Below are positions 10,844 to 63,234 of a stretch of DNA of 64,000 nucleotides, piece by piece. A model generated the notes under the pieces. That model worked only from the letters and a program-made list of their open reading frames with translations, had not been told where the DNA came from and ran no database searches. The stretch spans positions 1,860,001 to 1,924,000 of the forward strand of contig OY540814.1 of assembly GCA_961205875.1 (NCBI GenBank), read 5' to 3'. Numbering within the stretch: position 1 is the stretch's first letter; every line of letters begins with the position of its first letter. The translations under genes were made by a program, and so were the position numbers. The DNA is from Sialis fuliginosa. Taxonomy: Eukaryota; Arthropoda; Insecta; Megaloptera; Sialidae.

Positions 10844-12026
10844 TCTATATACATATAATAACATGTCCTGACTGATTCATCATCGCCCAGCCGAAACCCC
10901 TGGTCCTAGAAATGTGAAATTTTAAGGGTATCTTCCTTTTATGACGTAACCATCCACTAAGAAAGGATTTTTCGATAATCAATCCCTAAGGGGGTAAAGA
11001 GGGTGTAAAAGTTTTTATGGGAAAAATATTTTTTGGTCGGATTTACTTGAAACTTAAAATAAATACTCTTCAATACAAACAATGAAACACGTATTTTAAG
11101 CTTTTCTAAAATTAACTCCTTAAGGGGGTGCAAGGGGGTGGATAAGTTTGTATAGGAAAAATATTTTTTGGTCAGATTTACTTGAAACTTAAAATATATA
11201 CTCTTCAATACAAACAATGAAACACATGTTTCAGCTTTTTCCAAAATTAAACCCTTAAATGGGGTAAGAGGGTGTAAAATTTTGTATGGGAAAAATATTT
11301 TTTGGTCGGATTAACTTGAAACTTAAAATAAATACTCCTCAATACAAATAATGAAACATGTATTTCAGCATTTTCCAAAATTAAACCCTTAAATGGGGTA
11401 AGAGGGTGTAAAAGTTTGTATGGATAAAATATTGTTTGGTCGAATTTAATTGAAATTTAAAATAAATACTCTTCAATACAAACAATCAAACACGTATTTC
11501 AAGCTTTTCCAAAATTAAATCCTTAAGGGGGTGCAAGAGGATGGATAAGTTTGTATAGGAAAAATATTTTTTGGTCAGATTTACTTGAAACTTAAAATAA
11601 ATATCTTCAATACACACAATGAAACACGTATTTCAGCATTTTCCAAAATTAAACCCTTAAATGGGGTAAGAGGGTGTAAAAGTTTGTATGGAAAAAATAT
11701 TTTTTGGTCAGATTTACTTGAAACATAAAATAAATAATATTCAATACAAACAATAAAACACGTATTTTAACATTTTCCAAAAATGGGGTAGCAGCTAGTT
11801 TCTAAATAAAAATATCTTAAAAATTACTAGATTTATGAATTGGGCTCTTAAATCTCTACACAATATTGCTCTGAGAAATTTTCAACGAGATATTCACGCG
11901 TAAGTAAAAAAGTAATTTAATTAAGTGTTGTTTGGTTTTTATTAGAAAAATAACTAATCGTGTTTGTACTTAATTAAACTAAAAACCCTAAAAAATAATT
12001 CCGTTGTCCACGCGGGGCCCAGCTAG
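10844..12026 (+). mobile_element. Helitron-like element with internal minisatellite
   Basis: Starts TCTATATACATATAATAACA after an A. The next block contains the widespread CATCATCGCCCAGCCGAAAC motif. It ends CCACGCGGGGCCCAGCTAG followed by T, matching the Helitron pattern of a TC start, a GC-rich subterminal stem and a CTRR end between A and T. No terminal inverted repeats or target duplication, as expected. The subterminal block with AAGTGTTGTTTGG recurs on the minus strand at 48835-48975 and 59293-59450. No Rep/helicase is present, so non-autonomous. Confidence 0.65.
10965..11790. repeat. 133-bp tandem array, about six copies
   Basis: Successive units start near 10981, 11113, 11248, 11383, 11515 and 11650. 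Each holds a GGGGTAAGAGGGTGTAAAAG-type segment, AAAAATATTTTTTGGTC, GATTTACTTGAAACTTAAAA and CAATACAAACAATGAAACAC. Two unit variants alternate (AAATGGGGTAAGAGG versus AAGGGGGTGCAAGRGG), suggesting higher-order duplication. The minus frame at 10957-11244 is a by-product. Confidence 0.85.
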
Positions 12027-18837: not shown

Positions 18838-19440
18838 AAGCCAATATAAGAGTGTTTGTTAAAATGAATACATTCTGTTTTATACCTCTAAGATAATACA
18901 TTATGTTGTATAATATAATCTTAAGTCTAGTGATTATTGTATAGCTGAAACAACAGTGTCAGCATCTTGTGTCCGGTTGTGTGGTCTTAACTAACCACTT
19001 TAATAATTATTTTCTCACGGTTTGCGCATGCTCAATGAAAAGACGGTAAGGAGTGAGGGAAACAACTTCTCCTCCGATGTAGGGGAATTCGAACTTATAG
19101 GGATCGGACTTATAGGAGTTCAACTGACGTAGATTGGTGACCCAAAAACAGAAATGATGAAATTTCTGGAAAAAATATTTTTAGACCCCTCCTCCAGAGA
19201 ATGAAAAGTGTACTCAAAAAATTTTTTTTCGCTTATTCCATCGAGTGAGGTGTCTTTAGGTCTCCTAAAATGCAACGAAAATATATTAGGACCTTTTGAT
19301 TTCAACCCTTCAGTCACGATGTATTTGCTTTTCAAAGTCGTTATCAGAGGAAGCTCGCCTCACCTCTAATTTCTAAACAATCGATTCAAGAAATTTGAAA
19401 AAATCCAGAATGTAGCTTTTAATTAGTACTTTCAATGAAA

Positions 19441-27866: not shown

Positions 27867-28620
27867 TGACAGATATAAAAAAATTAATAGAACATAAACT
27901 ATAGATAATAACGTTCTATACATTTTTTGTTATAAACATTTCATTCTGTCATGACCTTGTTAAAAAAAATGGAAAAAAATAAAAAATTAAATAAAAAAAG
28001 ATTTTTTTTTAATTGGTAAGAGATACAAAAAAATTAATGGAACATAAACTATAGATAATAACGTTCTATACATTTTTTGTTATAAACATTTCATTCTGTC
28101 ATGACCTTGTTAAAAAAAATGGAAAAAAATAAAAAATTAAATAAAAAAAGATTTTTTTTTAATTGGTAAGAGATACAAAAAAATTAATGGAACATAAACT
28201 ATAGAAAATAACGTTCTCTACATTTTTTGTTATAAACATTTCATTCTGTCATGAACTTGTTCAAAAAAAATGGAAAAAAATAAAAAATTAAATAAAAAAG
28301 ATTTTTTTTAATTGGTAAGAGATACAAAAAAATTAATTGAACATAAACTATAGATAATAACGTTCTCTACATTTTTTGTTATAAACATTTCATTCTGCCA
28401 TGAACTTGTTAAAAAAAAATGGAAAAAAATAAAAAATTAAATAAAAAAGTTTTTTTTTTAATTGGTAAGAGATACAAAAAAATTAATGGAACATAAACTA
28501 TAGAAAATAACGTACTCTACAACTTTTATTTCAATAATTTATTTCTGCTTTAAACCATTTCGAATATAATTGAAAAAAAACGATTATAACCTCAAAAACT
28601 TTTTTTGAGAGGAATTGAAC
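27867..28620. repeat. 150-bp tandem array, about five copies
   Basis: AAATTAATRGAACATAAACT starts units at 27881, 28031, 28181, 28330 and 28480. Units are nearly identical, with small indels in A/T runs; the last is truncated. Each contains AATAACGTTCTMTACATTTT and TTTCATTCTGYCATGAMCTTG. Confidence 0.9.
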
Positions 28621-28965: not shown

Positions 28966-29783
28966 GTAAACTTGACTTGGAATGATCCAAAAATAATCTA
29001 TTTTTCTTAGTTTAACACGCTATTTCCAAAGAAGTTGTTAATTAAAACAGTATTATCTAGTTATCAATGGAACGCAGAAAAAAATATCTTTCTTTTTTAT
29101 ATGAAGTAAAAAAACTTTATTGGGCACAATAAACAAGTTATATAACAATTAAGTTTGTAAGAAAAGTGAAATCTTCAGATTTCGGAAAATTGTGGGGAAC
29201 CCTTAAAATTTAGAGAAAAATTAATAATGATAAAAAAGATTTTTTTTAATAACAACTTTAAAATAAACAAAATAAAATTGAAATCGGATGATTAGGAGCT
29301 GAGATACAGCCAATTTAATAAAAACCGTGGGGGCCATCTTTAATAGCCGATATAACAGTGTTCTACACGGATTTTAAAGTGGCTCCCTATCTGAAAATCT
29401 TTCATTTGAACTTATATATGACCACAGAAAGTGGCATACCCCAATCAAAAAGTGCAGCGTTTTGGCTTTATTTGCCACGAACCAGACGTACTATAAGTCT
29501 CATCAACACATGTTACTAATAAAACAACTAATTCTTTATTAAATCAATTTAATTACCAAAGTCCGCAATTTTTTAAATTATAGCCTTTTATTTTGTTTAT
29601 GTTTTTTCTCCAGTAATGGATAAAGTAAAACCAGTAATAAGCACGCAGTGATGGACACTTGCTAATGATTACAAAAGATATAAAAGAAAGAGTCGTTAAA
29701 TTTGAAACAATGTAAAGCAGTTGCTATGATAATATAATAATTAATAAATAAATTATACTAATAATTAATTATTATATTATTAC

Positions 29784-30748: not shown

Positions 30749-31528
30749 ATAAAAATATTTTAATTTTATGATATATTGCATGAAAACCATTATTTTTGTA
30801 TGCGGGTACCTGGTTGGACTATACGTGTACTTTTTTTCAAATTTAATATTTTCTCAGTTAAAGAAAAAAAAACTGTCAAATCGTTAAGATCTTAGAGGAT
30901 TTTTGCAAATTTTCTTTAGAAAAAAAATTATTCAACAAAATGTACGTCGATAGGTACCCGAGTATCTGGTTAGTTACACGAGGGTTAAAACGATCACAAA
31001 GCTTCTCGTATATTCTATATGGCAATATTGGCATCGTAATTACATATTTTCAAAACGTTCTGATAATCAATAATAGCTTGTTAATTTTATTAAGTGCATT
31101 ATTGCCACAAACGTTAATCGCAATTATTCCACTAATACAAATATAGGTTTATATAAATATAAACAAAAATGAATAAAATCACTAATGAAGACAAATTGCA
31201 CTAACATAATTGGATTTTTTGCATGTAAACAAATAAAATGCCTTTGTTTTGTTTATTTTTACCAATTTTACGTAAATAAACGTAAACTAATTTAACTAGA
31301 TTGATATTTCTATACGTTCATGCTGAATGATTTTGGCATTTTGTTAATTAATAATTTGATTGATATTGTTCCAAGTTTGATGAATGACGTTTACACAATC
31401 CACGTTTACATAACAACAACGAGAAGTAACGTGGATGGAAACCAGTGGCTCTTCAACTAGCTGGCCAAACAATTTATCTTTGATAAGGGTTTACTTGTTC
31501 CTTAATTGTTATAAATACAAATTTACTT
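30749..31528. other. Mostly single-copy; short relic of repeat F
   Basis: 30985-31015 (CGATCACAAAGCTTCTCGTA) matches the hairpin end of repeat F only. The 68-residue frame at 30940-31146 overlaps it and lacks recognisable features. Otherwise nothing is seen. Confidence 0.4.
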
Positions 31529-32071
31529 TCTAAATTTTATTTTCGGTTAATATTTTTGAGATATTATCATGTATTTATTAAAGTATATAAGATTTTGAAT
31601 TATTATTATATTAAGGAGATTGGGAAGTTACGTCACACCAGTAGGAATTAGTTGAAATTTCATAGTTGTTTAAACACTCAGTCAGAATGAATGACATACT
31701 GAAATTTCAGATTTTTTGACCATCTCGTTTTTAAGAAAATGAATTTTAAAGTCCAGTTGTAAATACATGGCGTTAAATGGCAGTTGATAAAAATTGAATT
31801 TAGTTTCTTAATTTTATTTTCGGTTTACATTTTTGAGATATTATCATGTATTTATTAAAGTATATAAGATTTTGAATTATTATTATATTAAGGAGGTTGG
31901 GAAGTTACGTCAAATCAGTAGGAATTAGTTGAAATTTCACAGTTGTTTAAACACTCAGTCAGAATGAATGACATACTGAAATTTCAGATTTTTTGACCAT
32001 CTCGTTTTTAAGAAAATTAATTTTAAAGTACAGTTGTAAATACATGGCGTTAAATGGCAGTTGATAAAAAC
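31529..32071 (+). repeat. Recent 277-bp tandem duplication
   Basis: 31533-31795 is repeated at 31810-32071 with few differences (landmarks GAGATATTATCATGTATTTA, AACACTCAGTCAGAATGAAT, TGTAAATACATGGCGTTAAA). The duplicated unit includes the left tip of the element at 31613, so that tip is present twice. Confidence 0.88.
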
Positions 32072-33032
32072 TGATTGTTAAAAGATACAGGGGTCAAAAC
32101 TGGTCAGTAAAATCAGTAAAAGTCAGTTTTTTGTAACCCGGTCAGTTAAAGTCAGTGTTTTGGAAAAATGGTCAGTTTTTTGGGTTTGGCACTCAAAGTT
32201 TTCATATCGGAGCCCTATTTATCGTGAAAAAACTCACTATTTGTTTTCAAAACGACACAATCATCGTGAAAAATATATTCAAATTATAAATAATGTTCTA
32301 TTTTGTTTACTTATTTGTATTGTTTATTTATTACCAACTTTTAGAAGATATTTTATGATATAATTGTAACGTAATTGTATATTTTATACACATTGTAACA
32401 TATAAAATAAACAACATAATCTCACCTTAGCACTGGCTACGCCAAGTTCGGCGAGAAAAATTAACAAAAATTAACTGTAATGTTTGTTACTTTTGTTATG
32501 AACATAATAAAAAGGTGGTAAGGGTTGGCTATGGAGATGGTGGAGGCCAATAATTATAAAAGTATTTTTTTAATACATAACACCTATAATATGTTTTAAC
32601 TCGGTTCAGATAGTCAGTAAAAGTCAGTATTTTTAGATTTCTGTGTCAGTAAAATCAGTATTTTTGAACACTGAACTTGTTTCGACCCCTGAAGATAGAG
32701 AAATGATAAAAATAAATTTAAAAAACAGTAAGATTGTTCTGAAAATTAAGTATATTGTAAAGTATACATTTATATAACTATTTAAACAAGAATTACCCAT
32801 TTTGACTACACCATTATTAAGAAAACAATAAAAGAAATATGAAAAATGTATGAAATTATGTATAAATATTTGAATTTAATGCGTAACATATGGCAACGGC
32901 GCTGGTATAGTAAAATTACAAGTAATGACAAATACATGAGTGCAAGTGAGAAAGACAAGTCGTAGTTTTGGCAACCAAAAACTGCGTCTTACCCCACCGC
33001 CTTCCCCTCAAACGTAACTTATCAACCTCCTT
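31613..33032. mobile_element. TA/TTAA-flanked element with duplicated left end
   Basis: Left tip TTAAGGAGATTGGGAAGTTA (31611) and its duplicate at 31888; right tip ends AACTTATCAACCTCCTTAA (33034), an inverted repeat. TTAA lies at both borders; the extent is given from inside TA. This fits a Tc1/mariner-like insertion at TA, or a TTAA-targeting element. It hosts a hAT at 32088-32691. No transposase. Confidence 0.65.
32088..32691. mobile_element. 604-bp hAT MITE
   Basis: Ends CAGGGGTCAAAACTGGTCAG and the complement of CAGGGGTCGAAACAAGTTCAG, with repeated TCAGTAAAATCAGTA motifs inside both tips. AAGATA lies immediately outside both ends (32082-32087 and 32692-32697), six bases of what should be an 8-bp duplication. 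Confidence 0.75.
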
Positions 33033-48789: not shown

Positions 48790-49640
48790 GGGAGGGGGTA
48801 AAGGGGGTAGCACTTTGCTAGTGACGGCAAATTAAAAAAAATTAATTATTGTTTAGGATTTAAAAAAAATATAGTTGAATTAAGTATTAGTTGTTGTAAT
48901 AAAAACCAAACAACACTTAAATTACCTACCTAACAAAAATGAATCAGAACAAAAAGTAAAAATAATTTTTGTTCTATTTAAATTTAAAAAATAATTATTG
49001 AAAACAAAATAACCAATTGACAATCAAAAGAATACCGGCCTGTGATCATTCCCTCTGCTCCACGGCTACACGGTATGCTCCCTTCTTACCGCACGCCGCG
49101 ACACGGGTTTTCATCGCGCGAATAATATGTTCCCGTATGTATATATCAAGATATTTTCTAAACTATACGACCAAATTGGATGCTGTAAAGGGCAAATTAT
49201 ATCTACATTTAGTACTTATGGAGATGAATTTATTCATTTCGATTAGGATTAATGTTTTGCAGGTCATAAGTCCACGTAAACAAAACTCAAATATTTTAAA
49301 TTTTCTTTGTAACATAAAAGCTTAAATATAAAAGTTAGACATATGGTGTCGCTGACTGTATTGTAGATCTTTTGATTCTACACAATTCTTTAATACATTA
49401 TTTTGTTCAATATTGAACGGTTTAGGCAGTGTATTGCAAAATAGCGCGCCGACGGCAAATTTTCTTCCGACTTGATTTACTATTATCGTCACTGCTTAGT
49501 TGTTATATTACTTAACGTAACAAAATATAGACTATTACCTGGTCAGAGAATGTACATATGAATTAAAAAATAAATAAGAGGTTCTCGGGCAGACAAACAG
49601 ACAGACAGACGTTGAGCTTTATATATATGTATTAAGGATG
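48790..49640 (-). mobile_element. Helitron-like element, minus strand
   Basis: 48835-48975 matches the complement of the Helitron subterminal block (AACAACACTTAAATTACCTA, ACAAAAAGTAAAAATAATTT). 49200-49640 matches the complement of 51906-52370, including ATATGGTGTCGCTGACTG, GCGCGCCGACGGCAAATTT and a GACAGACAGACGTTGAGCTT tip that reads as a 5' end starting near 49636. The 3' hairpin is degraded. The 49017-49325 frame lies inside and has no domain. Confidence 0.55.
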
Positions 49641-56540: not shown

Positions 56541-57723
56541 GTGAATTCCAAATTGATTAAGCCATATAGTACAGGCAAATTTACATTTAACTAAAACTTA
56601 ATTATTAGATTAAATTTTATTTCGGAAATGTATCCAATAGTATTTCTCATTAAAGAATTCAATGAGTCCCGAGGTCAGAAGTTGTGGCGTTTAGGGGAAA
56701 GTGGGGTAAAAAGGATATGTTAGATCAAATGTATGAAAATAATGAATGTCCCTGTACTAAATAGTTTATAACGAACATTAAGTAATTAATGAGGTCAAAA
56801 TTAATGTTGGGAAGAGGACTGGGGGTTATAAAATGACAAAAAAAAAATAGTAAGGTAAAATTAATTATTTTGTAACGGTAAATATTTATTTACATAAAAT
56901 TGACACGTGTGCATTAAAATTAGGTTTTATTAAGGAAAAAATGGAAAGATTAGAAATACCTCCTAAAATGGCTTCAGAAATACTTTATCTTTAATAAACC
57001 GAAGAGTCCCTAGTCGGGACAGGGGAACTTTAGTCGGTATTTTGATTTAAAGTAGGGCGCGTCAAATAAGCGATGAAGCTAGTCTTGATTTTGGCTTATC
57101 GTGTTCTACAAACAAATTTTATGAAAATCGGATAATATATGTCTCATAGAATGTAGCCATTCTATTTTTTTTAATTATGAAAGAGGAGAACCCCTCCATA
57201 AACAGCTTTGAACGGCCGCGTATTGCCAATGCTCTAAAAAATTGTTAGCTCTTTCTAGTGGGTTATATTTATTTTTGTTCATATGGGGACATGTTTAGGT
57301 GATACTGTTGCACCCATAAAAAATTATTTTGGTTATAACAATCAGAGGTTATCTGAATTATTCATTACTAAAGAGAGTTTTTGAGCTTTATAAATTGTGT
57401 ATCTCAGTATATTTGTTAATATTATTCAAAAACTAAGGATTTTCAAACAAAAACTTTTCTATGAAAATTGTAGCAGATGGTATCTTTAAATAGTTTTTTA
57501 TATACAAAATGATATAACTCAAAAGACAAAACGACTAACTCCATGACAAAAAATCGTGAATATTTAAGTTTTTATAAATCAAGATTTAACGGATTATTTT
57601 ATAGGTTGCCTTTATAAGTATATTTTGTAAAATAATGTTGTCATTATGTAAAATTATTAGAATTATGGAGGGAAAAGTGGGGTAAAATGGACATGTTCGA
57701 TCAAATGTTCGAAAATAATGTAA

Positions 57724-57809
57724 GTACGCTTTTCAGTCTATGGGACCCCCTCCCATAGACTGAAAAGCGTACAAACAATTCATTGGACCCCCCGTCCAAT
57801 GAATTGTTT
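57724..57809. repeat. Two adjacent perfect hairpins, each with a C5 loop
   Basis: Hairpin 1: 22-bp perfect stem 57724-57745/57751-57772 around CCCCC. Hairpin 2: 16-bp perfect stem 57773-57788/57794-57809 around CCCCC. There is no base between them. The stems (GTACGCTTTTCAGTCTATGG; AAACAATTCATTGGAC) are unrelated to each other. Hairpin 1 resembles TTTTTCAGTCTATTGGAAGG in repeat L at about 58060. Confidence 0.92.
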
Positions 57810-57814
57810 GACAG

Positions 57815-58256
57815 TGTTCGTTATAATTTTCAGTGAAAGTACTAATTAAAAGCTACATTCTAGATTTTTTTTCAGATTTTTTGAATTAAGAGTTTAGAAA
57901 TTAGATGGGTGGAGGCGCTCTAACAATAACATTGAAAAGCAAATATATCGTGACCGAAGGGTTAAAATCAAAAGGTCATTTGACATTTTTTGTTGCATTT
58001 TAGAAGACCTATCTAAGGACACCCCACTTGATGGAGTAAGTGAAAAAAAAATTGAATTTATTTTTCAGTCTATTGGAAGGGGGTCAAATATTTTTTTTTT
58101 CAAAATTTCATCATTTTTGTTTTTGAGTTATCAATCTACGTTCGTATACCAAATTTTATCTAAATCGGTATAAAATTTATATAAACGTACGGACGGACGG
58201 ACGGGCGGACAGAGCGAAACTAGAAGGGTTCCTAGTTTTCTACGGAACCCTAAAAT
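57815..58256 (+). repeat. Repeat L, uninterrupted copy
   Basis: Collinear with the split copy at 12369-19440. Ends in a GGACGGACGGACGGGCGGAC tract and the hairpin GGGTTCCTAGTTTTCTACGG-AACCC. Holds the empty sites for the hAT (CTAGGAAC complement at 58228-58235) and the pogo-like insertion (about 58146-58160). Confidence 0.75.
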
Positions 58257-58572
58257 AGATATTAGGTGTATAATATTTAAAATTAAGACAGTCTTTAATG
58301 TGTTATTAAAGAAAATCATCAACAATATAAAAGCTATCCGCGCGCAACTTTTCCCCCTCCAATATTCACATACGCAACAGCCTTAAAACTCGGGACTCAT
58401 TGGATTCTTAAAGTATATATATAACAAAGTGATTTAAAACAAAAAAAATAGATCTAAGAATTATGTTCTTTTCAGGTCGATTTTTTGTCTAATTTGCCTG
58501 TACTAATAGGAAATTTAACAAGGAGAGAATTAAAAGTGTTGTGATGGAATTTAACAATCATTTTGAATAATA

Positions 58573-59292: not shown

Positions 59293-59640
59293 CGAGCTGA
59301 GCCCGCGCGGCTTCGCTCGCGTGGACTACGGAATTATTGTTTAAGATTTAAAAAATTGTAATAAAACAACACTTAAATTACCTACCTAACAAAAACGAAT
59401 CAGAACAAAAAGTAAAAATAATTTTTAATCTGAAAAAAATCACGAAAAATGAGAATTAAGTGTAGATTAAGCCAAAATTACTAAGATTGAAAAATTCTTG
59501 CGGTATCAATTGATATAAACAATTTAATTATTTATTTCCATATAATTGCTGACCAATGGTTTTAAAGAAAAAGTTGTTCAACAATAGACACTTTTCATGA
59601 TGTAAGGAACAACTTTTATCTATATACATTTTTCAAAATG
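59293..59640 (-). mobile_element. Helitron-like 3' fragment
   Basis: On the minus strand it ends CCACGCGAGCGAAGCCGCGC followed by GGGCTCAGC, a GC-rich stem near the 3' terminus. The upstream block (AAGTGTTGTTTTATTAC, TTGTTAGGTAGGTAATTT in reverse sense) matches 48835-48975 and, more loosely, 11920-12010. It abuts the Tigger remnant. The 5' part is not identified. Confidence 0.6.
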
Positions 59641-61990: not shown

Positions 61991-62394
61991 GACTGGTGAA
62001 AGTATTTTACTAAAGGTCCTCCTATATTAAATTCAACATTATTTACGATAATGTAATAATTCGGTTAAGACATACACGGGTGTATGCCATAAGGTTTCCG
62101 TACGTGCTACGTGGACTGTTTGGTACCACTTAAAGGTGCATTTTTTAGTTAGGAAAAAATATAAAAAAGTGTCATGTTCAGTAGAAAAATTGAGATCTAC
62201 ATTTTGACACCCCACTTGCGTAGATATCAAAATAAAAAACTCTATAACGCCCCTCCCTATTTCTCAGAAATTTGAATTAATATTGTTGACTTGAGTATTT
62301 GTCGTTGGTAGTCCTACCAAAGCCTCGTTACCAAATTTTTTCAGATTTTTTGATCCAGTAGTTACCGATTTAGGAGTGGGAAGGGGGGGGGCAA
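61991..62394. other. Probable left part of repeat I; no gene
   Basis: AT-rich, with a 7-8-G run near 62385. The minus frames at 62039-62230 and 62264-62452 have no domain. Confidence 0.4.
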
Positions 62395-62690
62395 AATTAC
62401 TGCCCCCTACAGGCATCATTTTTGAATTAGAAAAAATAAGAAAGAGGGTCAAATTCCGCTGGTTTGGTTTTACATTTTAACGTGCCTTTTACCTAGCTTT
62501 AACTCATAGTGCCTCCTCTGAAAAATTATTTTTTTAACTTTGTACATATTTTACTAGAGGGTATTATTTTACATATTCAGTAAAAATTTCAACATTCTAG
62601 CTTATATAGTTTACGAGATATTTTGCTTTGAGTGAAAAGGACGGACGGACGACAAAGTGAGATTATTAGGGTTTCTTCGGAACCCTAATA
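62395..62690 (+). repeat. Dispersed repeat I, copy 2
   Basis: Collinear with 46810-47139; ends AAAAGGACGGACGGACGAC and the hairpin AGGGTTTCTTCGGAACCCT. Somewhat shortened in the middle. Confidence 0.75.
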
Positions 62691-63234
62691 ATTGACTTTT
62701 CATTAACAAAAATTTTTTTACGTATAGATATTATAGAAATATTTAAAAAAGGTATTTTTTATTACAAAACAAAATATCAATATGAAAATTTCGTTCTTAT
62801 AAATACAATGCACCTTCCACAAACTTTTAATATGAATATTTGAACAGAGATTATTCAGATTTTTTTTTTTATATAAAAGTTTTACGCACAAAAAATACAA
62901 TACCGACGATTACACAAAAGAACGAATTCTGCCTCATCATCGAGAAATCCAATACAGAGCACGCATTATTTAAGAGTAGCAGTGGGATTAGAACCCACAG
63001 AGAAACCCGTGTCGATTTATATATTGTTAGTAAGTTGTTTCAGATTTGTGACTTTTTGCGGCGTTCGCATTGATTTGCAGAGAAGATCAGCTGTGTTGTT
63101 TATAAGAACTTTTGTATGCGTTTTGAATTTTAGGTCAGTTGAAGTTTCCTAAAGGGTTTATGTTTTAGACCAAGTATTATTATTGCGTCATTTAACAAAA
63201 AACATTCTTATTGAATATATCTAAACATTATTAG
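62691..63234. other. No gene; weak tRNA-B-box-like patch
   Basis: On the minus strand 62974-62995 reads GTGGGTTCTAATCCCAC, which resembles a T-arm, but no D arm, anticodon arm or acceptor partner follows. AT-rich otherwise. Confidence 0.4.

Follow-up and report, generated by a model that had tools for sequence, protein, structure and literature searches.

How do two perfect palindromes come to stand back to back in a region of decayed repeats? In the window (the whole 64-kb stretch of DNA analyzed here), two perfect DNA hairpins, 87 bp in all, lie between two repeats that we call P and L. Most likely, this twin hairpin represents a known kind of mutation and not a new device. The explanation that we favor is a mutation scar left by snap-back (foldback) DNA synthesis, most likely during the joining of a broken end between P and L, to which we assign a probability slightly above one half.

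The twin hairpins

The elements of the structure are as follows.

57724-57772: hairpin 1, 22/22 pairs, GTACGCTTTTCAGTCTATGGGA-CCCCC-TCCCATAGACTGAAAAGCGTAC
57724..57745, plus strand: left arm of hairpin 1, 22 nt, perfect complement of 57751-57772; probable daughter copy
57746..57750, plus strand: loop of hairpin 1, CCCCC; on the minus strand, GGGGG is part of the L-family match
57751..57772, minus strand: right arm of hairpin 1 and probable parent; extended across the loop and 2 nt beyond it (57772 down to 57744), it forms the L-family piece
57772-57810: hairpin 2, 17/17 pairs counting C57772
57772..57788, plus strand: left arm of hairpin 2, 17 nt, perfect complement of 57794-57810; C57772 is common to hairpin 1
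57789..57793, plus strand: loop of hairpin 2, CCCCC, preceded by one further C of the same run (six C in all)
57794..57810, plus strand: right arm of hairpin 2, 17 nt; adjoins the start of the L match

An earlier note on this DNA had described two perfect hairpins with CCCCC loops at these positions, and both are there; its length of 16 bp for the second stem omits C57772, with which the stem reaches 17 bp. This base can pair in either hairpin, and of the six C's in the run of hairpin 2, one sits paired in the stem.

Stems of this length are not expected from the composition of the window. In 20 order-3 Markov simulations of it, the maximum stem length of a run ranged from 11 to 15 bp (loops of 0-30 nt), and the same scan of the real window finds only one other place with a perfect stem of at least 17 bp, a low-complexity A/T sequence at 29729-29780. 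A scan of the window that tolerates mismatches (loops of 3-12 nt, score of at least 11) reports 15 places, and the 13 besides the twin hairpins all lack a C5 or G5 loop. Because C5 and G5 together make up only 0.14% of all 5-mers in the window, twin C5 loops are unlikely to be a compositional coincidence.

Folded as single-stranded DNA, the plus strand of 57720-57812 forms exactly two hairpins (21 + 17 pairs, with C57772 assigned to hairpin 2) at -41.4 kcal/mol and a z-score of -17.7. Both strands of this 93-nt stretch fold into exactly these two hairpins, and for each strand 0/200 shuffles are as stable.

The surrounding sequence

The hairpins sit in what looks like insect non-coding DNA, in a window of about 29% G+C whose repeats are insect-like in style and probably lepidopteran. 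There are five stop-to-stop frames of at least 110 aa, and a Pfam search with four of them (all except 10957-11310) yielded nothing above the curated cut-off and one sub-threshold match (E-value 0.096). The window also holds three tandem arrays, at 10991-11782 (unit of 134 bp, 5.9 copies), 27871-28521 (150 bp, 4.3 copies) and 31520-32074 (277 bp, 2 copies). Just past a GGACGGACGGAC stretch there is a 12-bp hairpin, ATTATTAGGGTT/AACCCTAATAAT, at 62662-62692, and a similar GGGTTCC...GGAACCC pair, also after GGACGGACGGAC, is found at 58226-58250.

We observe no meaningful relative in public viral, bacterial, phage and plasmid collections; the verdict rests on one 64-kb window. Searching viral contigs with a 16-mer gave 25 loci, and a local blastn comparison of 57300-58400 with those loci, with the low-complexity filter off, gave matches of 15-45 nt only. 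The best of them (locus L021, 45 nt, 80% identity, E-value 1e-4; then locus L009, 42 nt, 83%, E-value 0.001) are taken as chance. Longer L or tail motifs had no occurrence in either viral or genome contigs, and the plasmid and phage collections returned no match.

The hairpins at a possible junction of two repeats

The flanking repeats are placed as follows.

57669..57720, plus strand: left-hand repeat, P; other copy at 56693-56744 (88% identity over 52 nt)
57812..58141, plus strand: right-hand repeat, L; other copy on the minus strand at 19456-19127 (80% identity over 341 columns)

The hairpin pair occupies the 91-base gap that separates P from L. By BLAST, P stops 4 positions before hairpin 1 and L begins 2 positions after hairpin 2. 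The P boundary is uncertain, since a profile model of P extends slightly beyond the BLAST end, to 57727, and under global alignment P has a different end.

Elsewhere in the window P and L occur apart. In profile searches of the window, the second P copy is not followed by L and the second L copy is not preceded by P, and a hairpin of this kind is absent from the corresponding border of both the second P copy (56693-56744) and the second L copy (19456-19127). This arrangement, based on one clear other copy each of P and L within the window, suggests that the hairpins mark a junction.

Two further repeats of the window can be recorded here. A profile search reports a possible third, decayed L-family remnant at 62299-62386 on the plus strand (E-value 0.0017). 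A 63-nt pair, 59364-59426 and 48908-48970, is 98.4% identical with flanks that look different by eye, and it is a younger duplication than P or L.

How old are the hairpins? The earlier note had read perfect stems as the mark of very recent or constrained formation. A very recent date finds no support here: 0 mismatches in 39 stem bp only bounds the divergence between arms below 7.4% (95%), which is below the 20% of the L copies. The probability of 0 mismatches in 39 bp is 0.0002 at the 20% divergence of L and 0.008 at the 11.5% of P. Because such clean stems are improbable at either divergence, the hairpins postdate the repeats, or conversion has kept their arms alike; they are not necessarily very recent.

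The L-family origin of hairpin 1

The likeness of hairpin 1 to repeat L, which the earlier note had also pointed out, is real. On the minus strand, the arm, the loop and the next two bases read GTACGCTTTTCAGTCTATGGGAGGGGGTC (29 nt, ending in GGGGGTC) and match the interior of L at these places.

58062..58085, plus strand: interior L piece that resembles the arm and loop of hairpin 1, TTTTCAGTCTATTGGAAGGGGGTC; aligned locally over 24 columns, with 1 mismatch and 1 gap
19186..19221, minus strand: counterpart of this piece in the other L copy, GTACACTTTTCATTCTCTGGAGGAGGGG

Against the GTACGCTTTTCAGTCTATGGGAGGGGGTC of hairpin 1, the second L copy reads GTACACTTTTCATTCTCTGGAGGAGGGGTC. The 29-nt match scores 19 and 17 with the two L copies, and 0/2000 shuffles reach either score. 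Real 330-nt pieces of the window do no better (0/1915 reach the score for copy 1, 0/1940 for copy 2), nor do pieces around other G5/C5 run positions (0/88, which overlap in long runs and so are non-independent). A two-copy L model built for nhmmer recovers the site of the hairpin 1 right arm with an E-value of 0.0021.

The L match traverses the loop in the minus orientation only. Since GGGGGTC lies inside the match, the parent is likely the minus-strand copy, with the left arm on the plus strand as its likely daughter. In this one orientation, the arm and loop of hairpin 1 are of L-family origin. The last two matched bases, TC, pair with GA across G5, giving a 2-nt GA/TC at the fold point. Where the L match stops suggests that a strand ending in ...GGGAGGGGGTC paired its TC with GA and then copied itself, a short priming microhomology beside a small loop.

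Which copy of L was the donor? At one end the hairpin 1 arm reads GTACGC against ATTTAT in the neighboring L, and because of this difference the neighboring L as it stands is probably not the donor, which would be another L copy or an older insertion.

Hairpin 2 and the contiguity of the arms

Hairpin 2 has the same geometry as hairpin 1, with GAC/GTC around C5 and 17 perfect pairs. The GTC/GAC would fit as a priming microhomology; the arm itself shows no relative that would mark a parent side. The bare arm scores 8 against L, equaled by 680-793 of 2000 shuffles, and with the loop added it scores 10-11, a level that 12-14 of the 88 pieces from other G5/C5 run positions attain. The same 12-14/88 applies to a second L-derived arm, in which the minus-strand ATTGGACGGGGGGTC would correspond to the ATTGGAAGGGGGTC of L, and we rejected it. 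That hairpin 2 comes from the same event as hairpin 1 is something we infer from their adjacency, identical loops and equal perfection.

If the two arms had been contiguous in an ancestral L copy, as AATTGTTTGTACGCTTTTC, the pair would be a dumbbell. Extending the L match from the hairpin 1 arm gives, for copy 2, a score of 5 into the center (reached by 901/5000 shuffles) and 7 into the P flank (479/5000), and for copy 1, 1 into the center (127/5000) and 2 into the P flank (1283/5000). As candidates for the native neighbor of the arm, the P flank and the center carry the L match on about equally well. We disfavor an arm1-C5-arm2 ancestor that was broken at one C5 run and folded at both ends: what follows the arm in the L match is GGGGGTC, not CCCCC.

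A proposed snap-back model

The earlier note had proposed a foldback or template-switch route at two G5/C5 runs. This is the best-supported reading, for hairpin 1 through an L match that includes G5 and a TC able to prime on GA; for hairpin 2, the arm is at chance level against L. Both hairpins do carry an inverted copy next to the fold in perfect identity (22/22 and 17/17 pairs).

In the scheme that we propose, the minus strand with a 3′ end in ...TTGGACGGGGGGTC would fold on GAC/GTC and copy itself into hairpin 2. The strand would continue through an L-family piece ending in ...TATGGGAGGGGGTC, and a second fold, on GA/TC around the next G5, would copy back to give hairpin 1. The new end after hairpin 1 would then be joined to P. 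The order of these steps is our reconstruction, and GTAC is a candidate joining microhomology that may be derived from P. No function of the product is needed or claimed.

Polymerase theta acting in alternative end joining would be the best fit from the papers. According to PMC11292364, Pol theta can use two terminal base pairs to start stem-loop synthesis, pairings of 1-3 bp around a loop of 6 nt favor inverted templated insertions in Drosophila, and inverted templated insertions of 3-30 bp are frequent in mammalian cells. In the stem-loops that Pol theta prefers, the same source states, the loop is preceded by 5-6 nt of primer strand; the 2-nt primer here may not conform to this. In fly end joining, according to PMC2895639, templated insertions are common in both orientations, and where mus308 is wild-type the inserts average 5.5 nt. 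Yeast foldback duplications at breaks are described in PMC11724301 as mostly ~5-34 bp, the majority <14 bp, that case using 10-nt inverted microhomologies and a 41-nt spacer, and PMC10622511 has foldback priming at breaks yielding hairpin-capped ends. A counterpoint to the snap-back reading is that two long perfect foldbacks are longer than typical insertions.

Alternative explanations

We favor snap-back synthesis in end joining over a replication-fork switch, part of a transposon, an artefact or an RNA. A fork-based origin, in which the nascent strand switches to its own or the sister template with no double-strand break, in one or two events, and in its extreme form leaves a captured hairpin-capped 'dogbone', is a tentative second explanation. 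Template-switch mutations are reported to make perfect stems in one event (PMC8794818), and hairpin-capped intermediates, along with inverted products, are described for leading-to-lagging switches at short inverted repeats (PMC10766183). The hairpins read arm1-loop-inverted(arm2 arm1)-loop-arm2, the order of a dumbbell opened at one point. Against it, the P and L matches both stop at the hairpins, which fits a junction better than a local switch within one repeat, and the arm-contiguity test gave the extension scores of 5/7 and 1/2 (center/P flank) noted above. RNA hairpins with instantaneous compensatory changes favor 4-nt loops in the data of PMC8794818, where 5-nt loops are under-represented (11.7% vs. 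16.8%). It seems to us doubtful that the 87 bp represent one turn of a tiny dumbbell DNA, capped by a hairpin at each end. Such a molecule would have been made from an L-family fragment whose ends both snapped back at G5/C5 runs, and would later have been opened at a single point and captured with two other repeats on its sides. If true, the locus would preserve a dogbone intermediate as a natural fossil at base level, and G5 runs near GGA...TC in the L family would be foldback hotspots. It is because the hairpins sit in a junction setting that we prefer break repair, with moderate confidence.

The double hairpin could also be a structural part of a multi-copy repeat family, such as a transposon end or a foldback element. 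It is located between repeats, and another repeat of the window, that of GGACGGACGGAC followed by the hairpin at 62662-62692, has a hairpin of its own. We hold this to be unlikely: the second copies of L and P (one other copy each, within the window) have no such hairpin at the border and lie apart, and the stems are perfect amid repeats diverged by 12-20%. There is no further copy of the double hairpin within the 64-kb window, and no target-site duplication was noticed by eye at its ends. Could the structure be made by the assembly, the library or the sequencing? Library preparation can generate short palindromic chimeras, but two unrelated short hairpins of 87 bp in total fit inside a single read, and an error in a minority of reads should not normally enter the consensus, which makes an artefact improbable. 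Least probable of all is a functional RNA (for example, a miRNA pair) or a cruciform site under selection. As to the RNA structure that the earlier note had entertained, its very stable fold stands (0/200 shuffles), and there are weak matches of miRNA models to the hairpins (best, mir-5681, 28.1 bits, E-value 0.0014). However, the 12 Rfam matches listed up to an E-value of 5 are all far below their gathering scores (the best at 28.1 vs. 88), so that none of them identifies a known RNA family. Of the 12, 10 fall on the hairpins, a pattern that any strong hairpin might produce. The usual animal miRNA precursors are unlike 22 perfect pairs with a 5-nt loop. A parvovirus-like T-shaped terminal repeat, which consists of an outer stem enclosing two back-to-back hairpins, was rejected: the minimum-energy fold of 57660-57860 is without the outer stem, and the centroid has only 3 enclosing pairs.

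Comparison with known systems

Among the titles and abstract openings listed by our literature searches, none describes twin hairpins with C5 loops. Under the snap-back reading, the closest likeness is to the inverted templated insertions of Pol theta (SD-MMEJ/TMEJ), with which the locus would share 1-3 bp priming, a loop of ~6 nt, inverted copies to ~30 bp and a position at a repair junction. They differ in that here two long perfect foldbacks stand back to back, both loops are G5/C5, the allele is natural and Pol theta is a candidate enzyme. Yeast foldback inversions (Pol delta and NHEJ) are likewise short inverted duplications at breaks, most of ~5-34 bp, but use 10-nt imperfect microhomologies and a 41-nt spacer, in contrast to 2-3 bp and 5 nt here. 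Short-range template-switch mutations that create RNA or DNA hairpins resemble our case in that one event gives perfect stems; they are deduced there from reconstructed ancestors, whereas we have one present-day sequence. ODIRA dogbone intermediates share two hairpin-capped ends around an inverted center, although ODIRA concerns segmental inverted triplications of an entire gene locus that includes an origin, compared with 87 bp and no triplication here. Mitochondrial double-hairpin elements have two adjacent hairpins and are mobile, repeated and organellar; here, no second copy of the twin hairpin is seen in the window.

Significance

This locus shows cleanly, in a natural setting, how repeats may give rise to perfect palindromes. 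The parent family of one arm can be named, as can a probable 2-nt primer, and the loop is a G/C run. If GGA-G5-TC in the L family is a recurrent foldback site, then the host genome would offer many datable snap-back events from an insect germ line.
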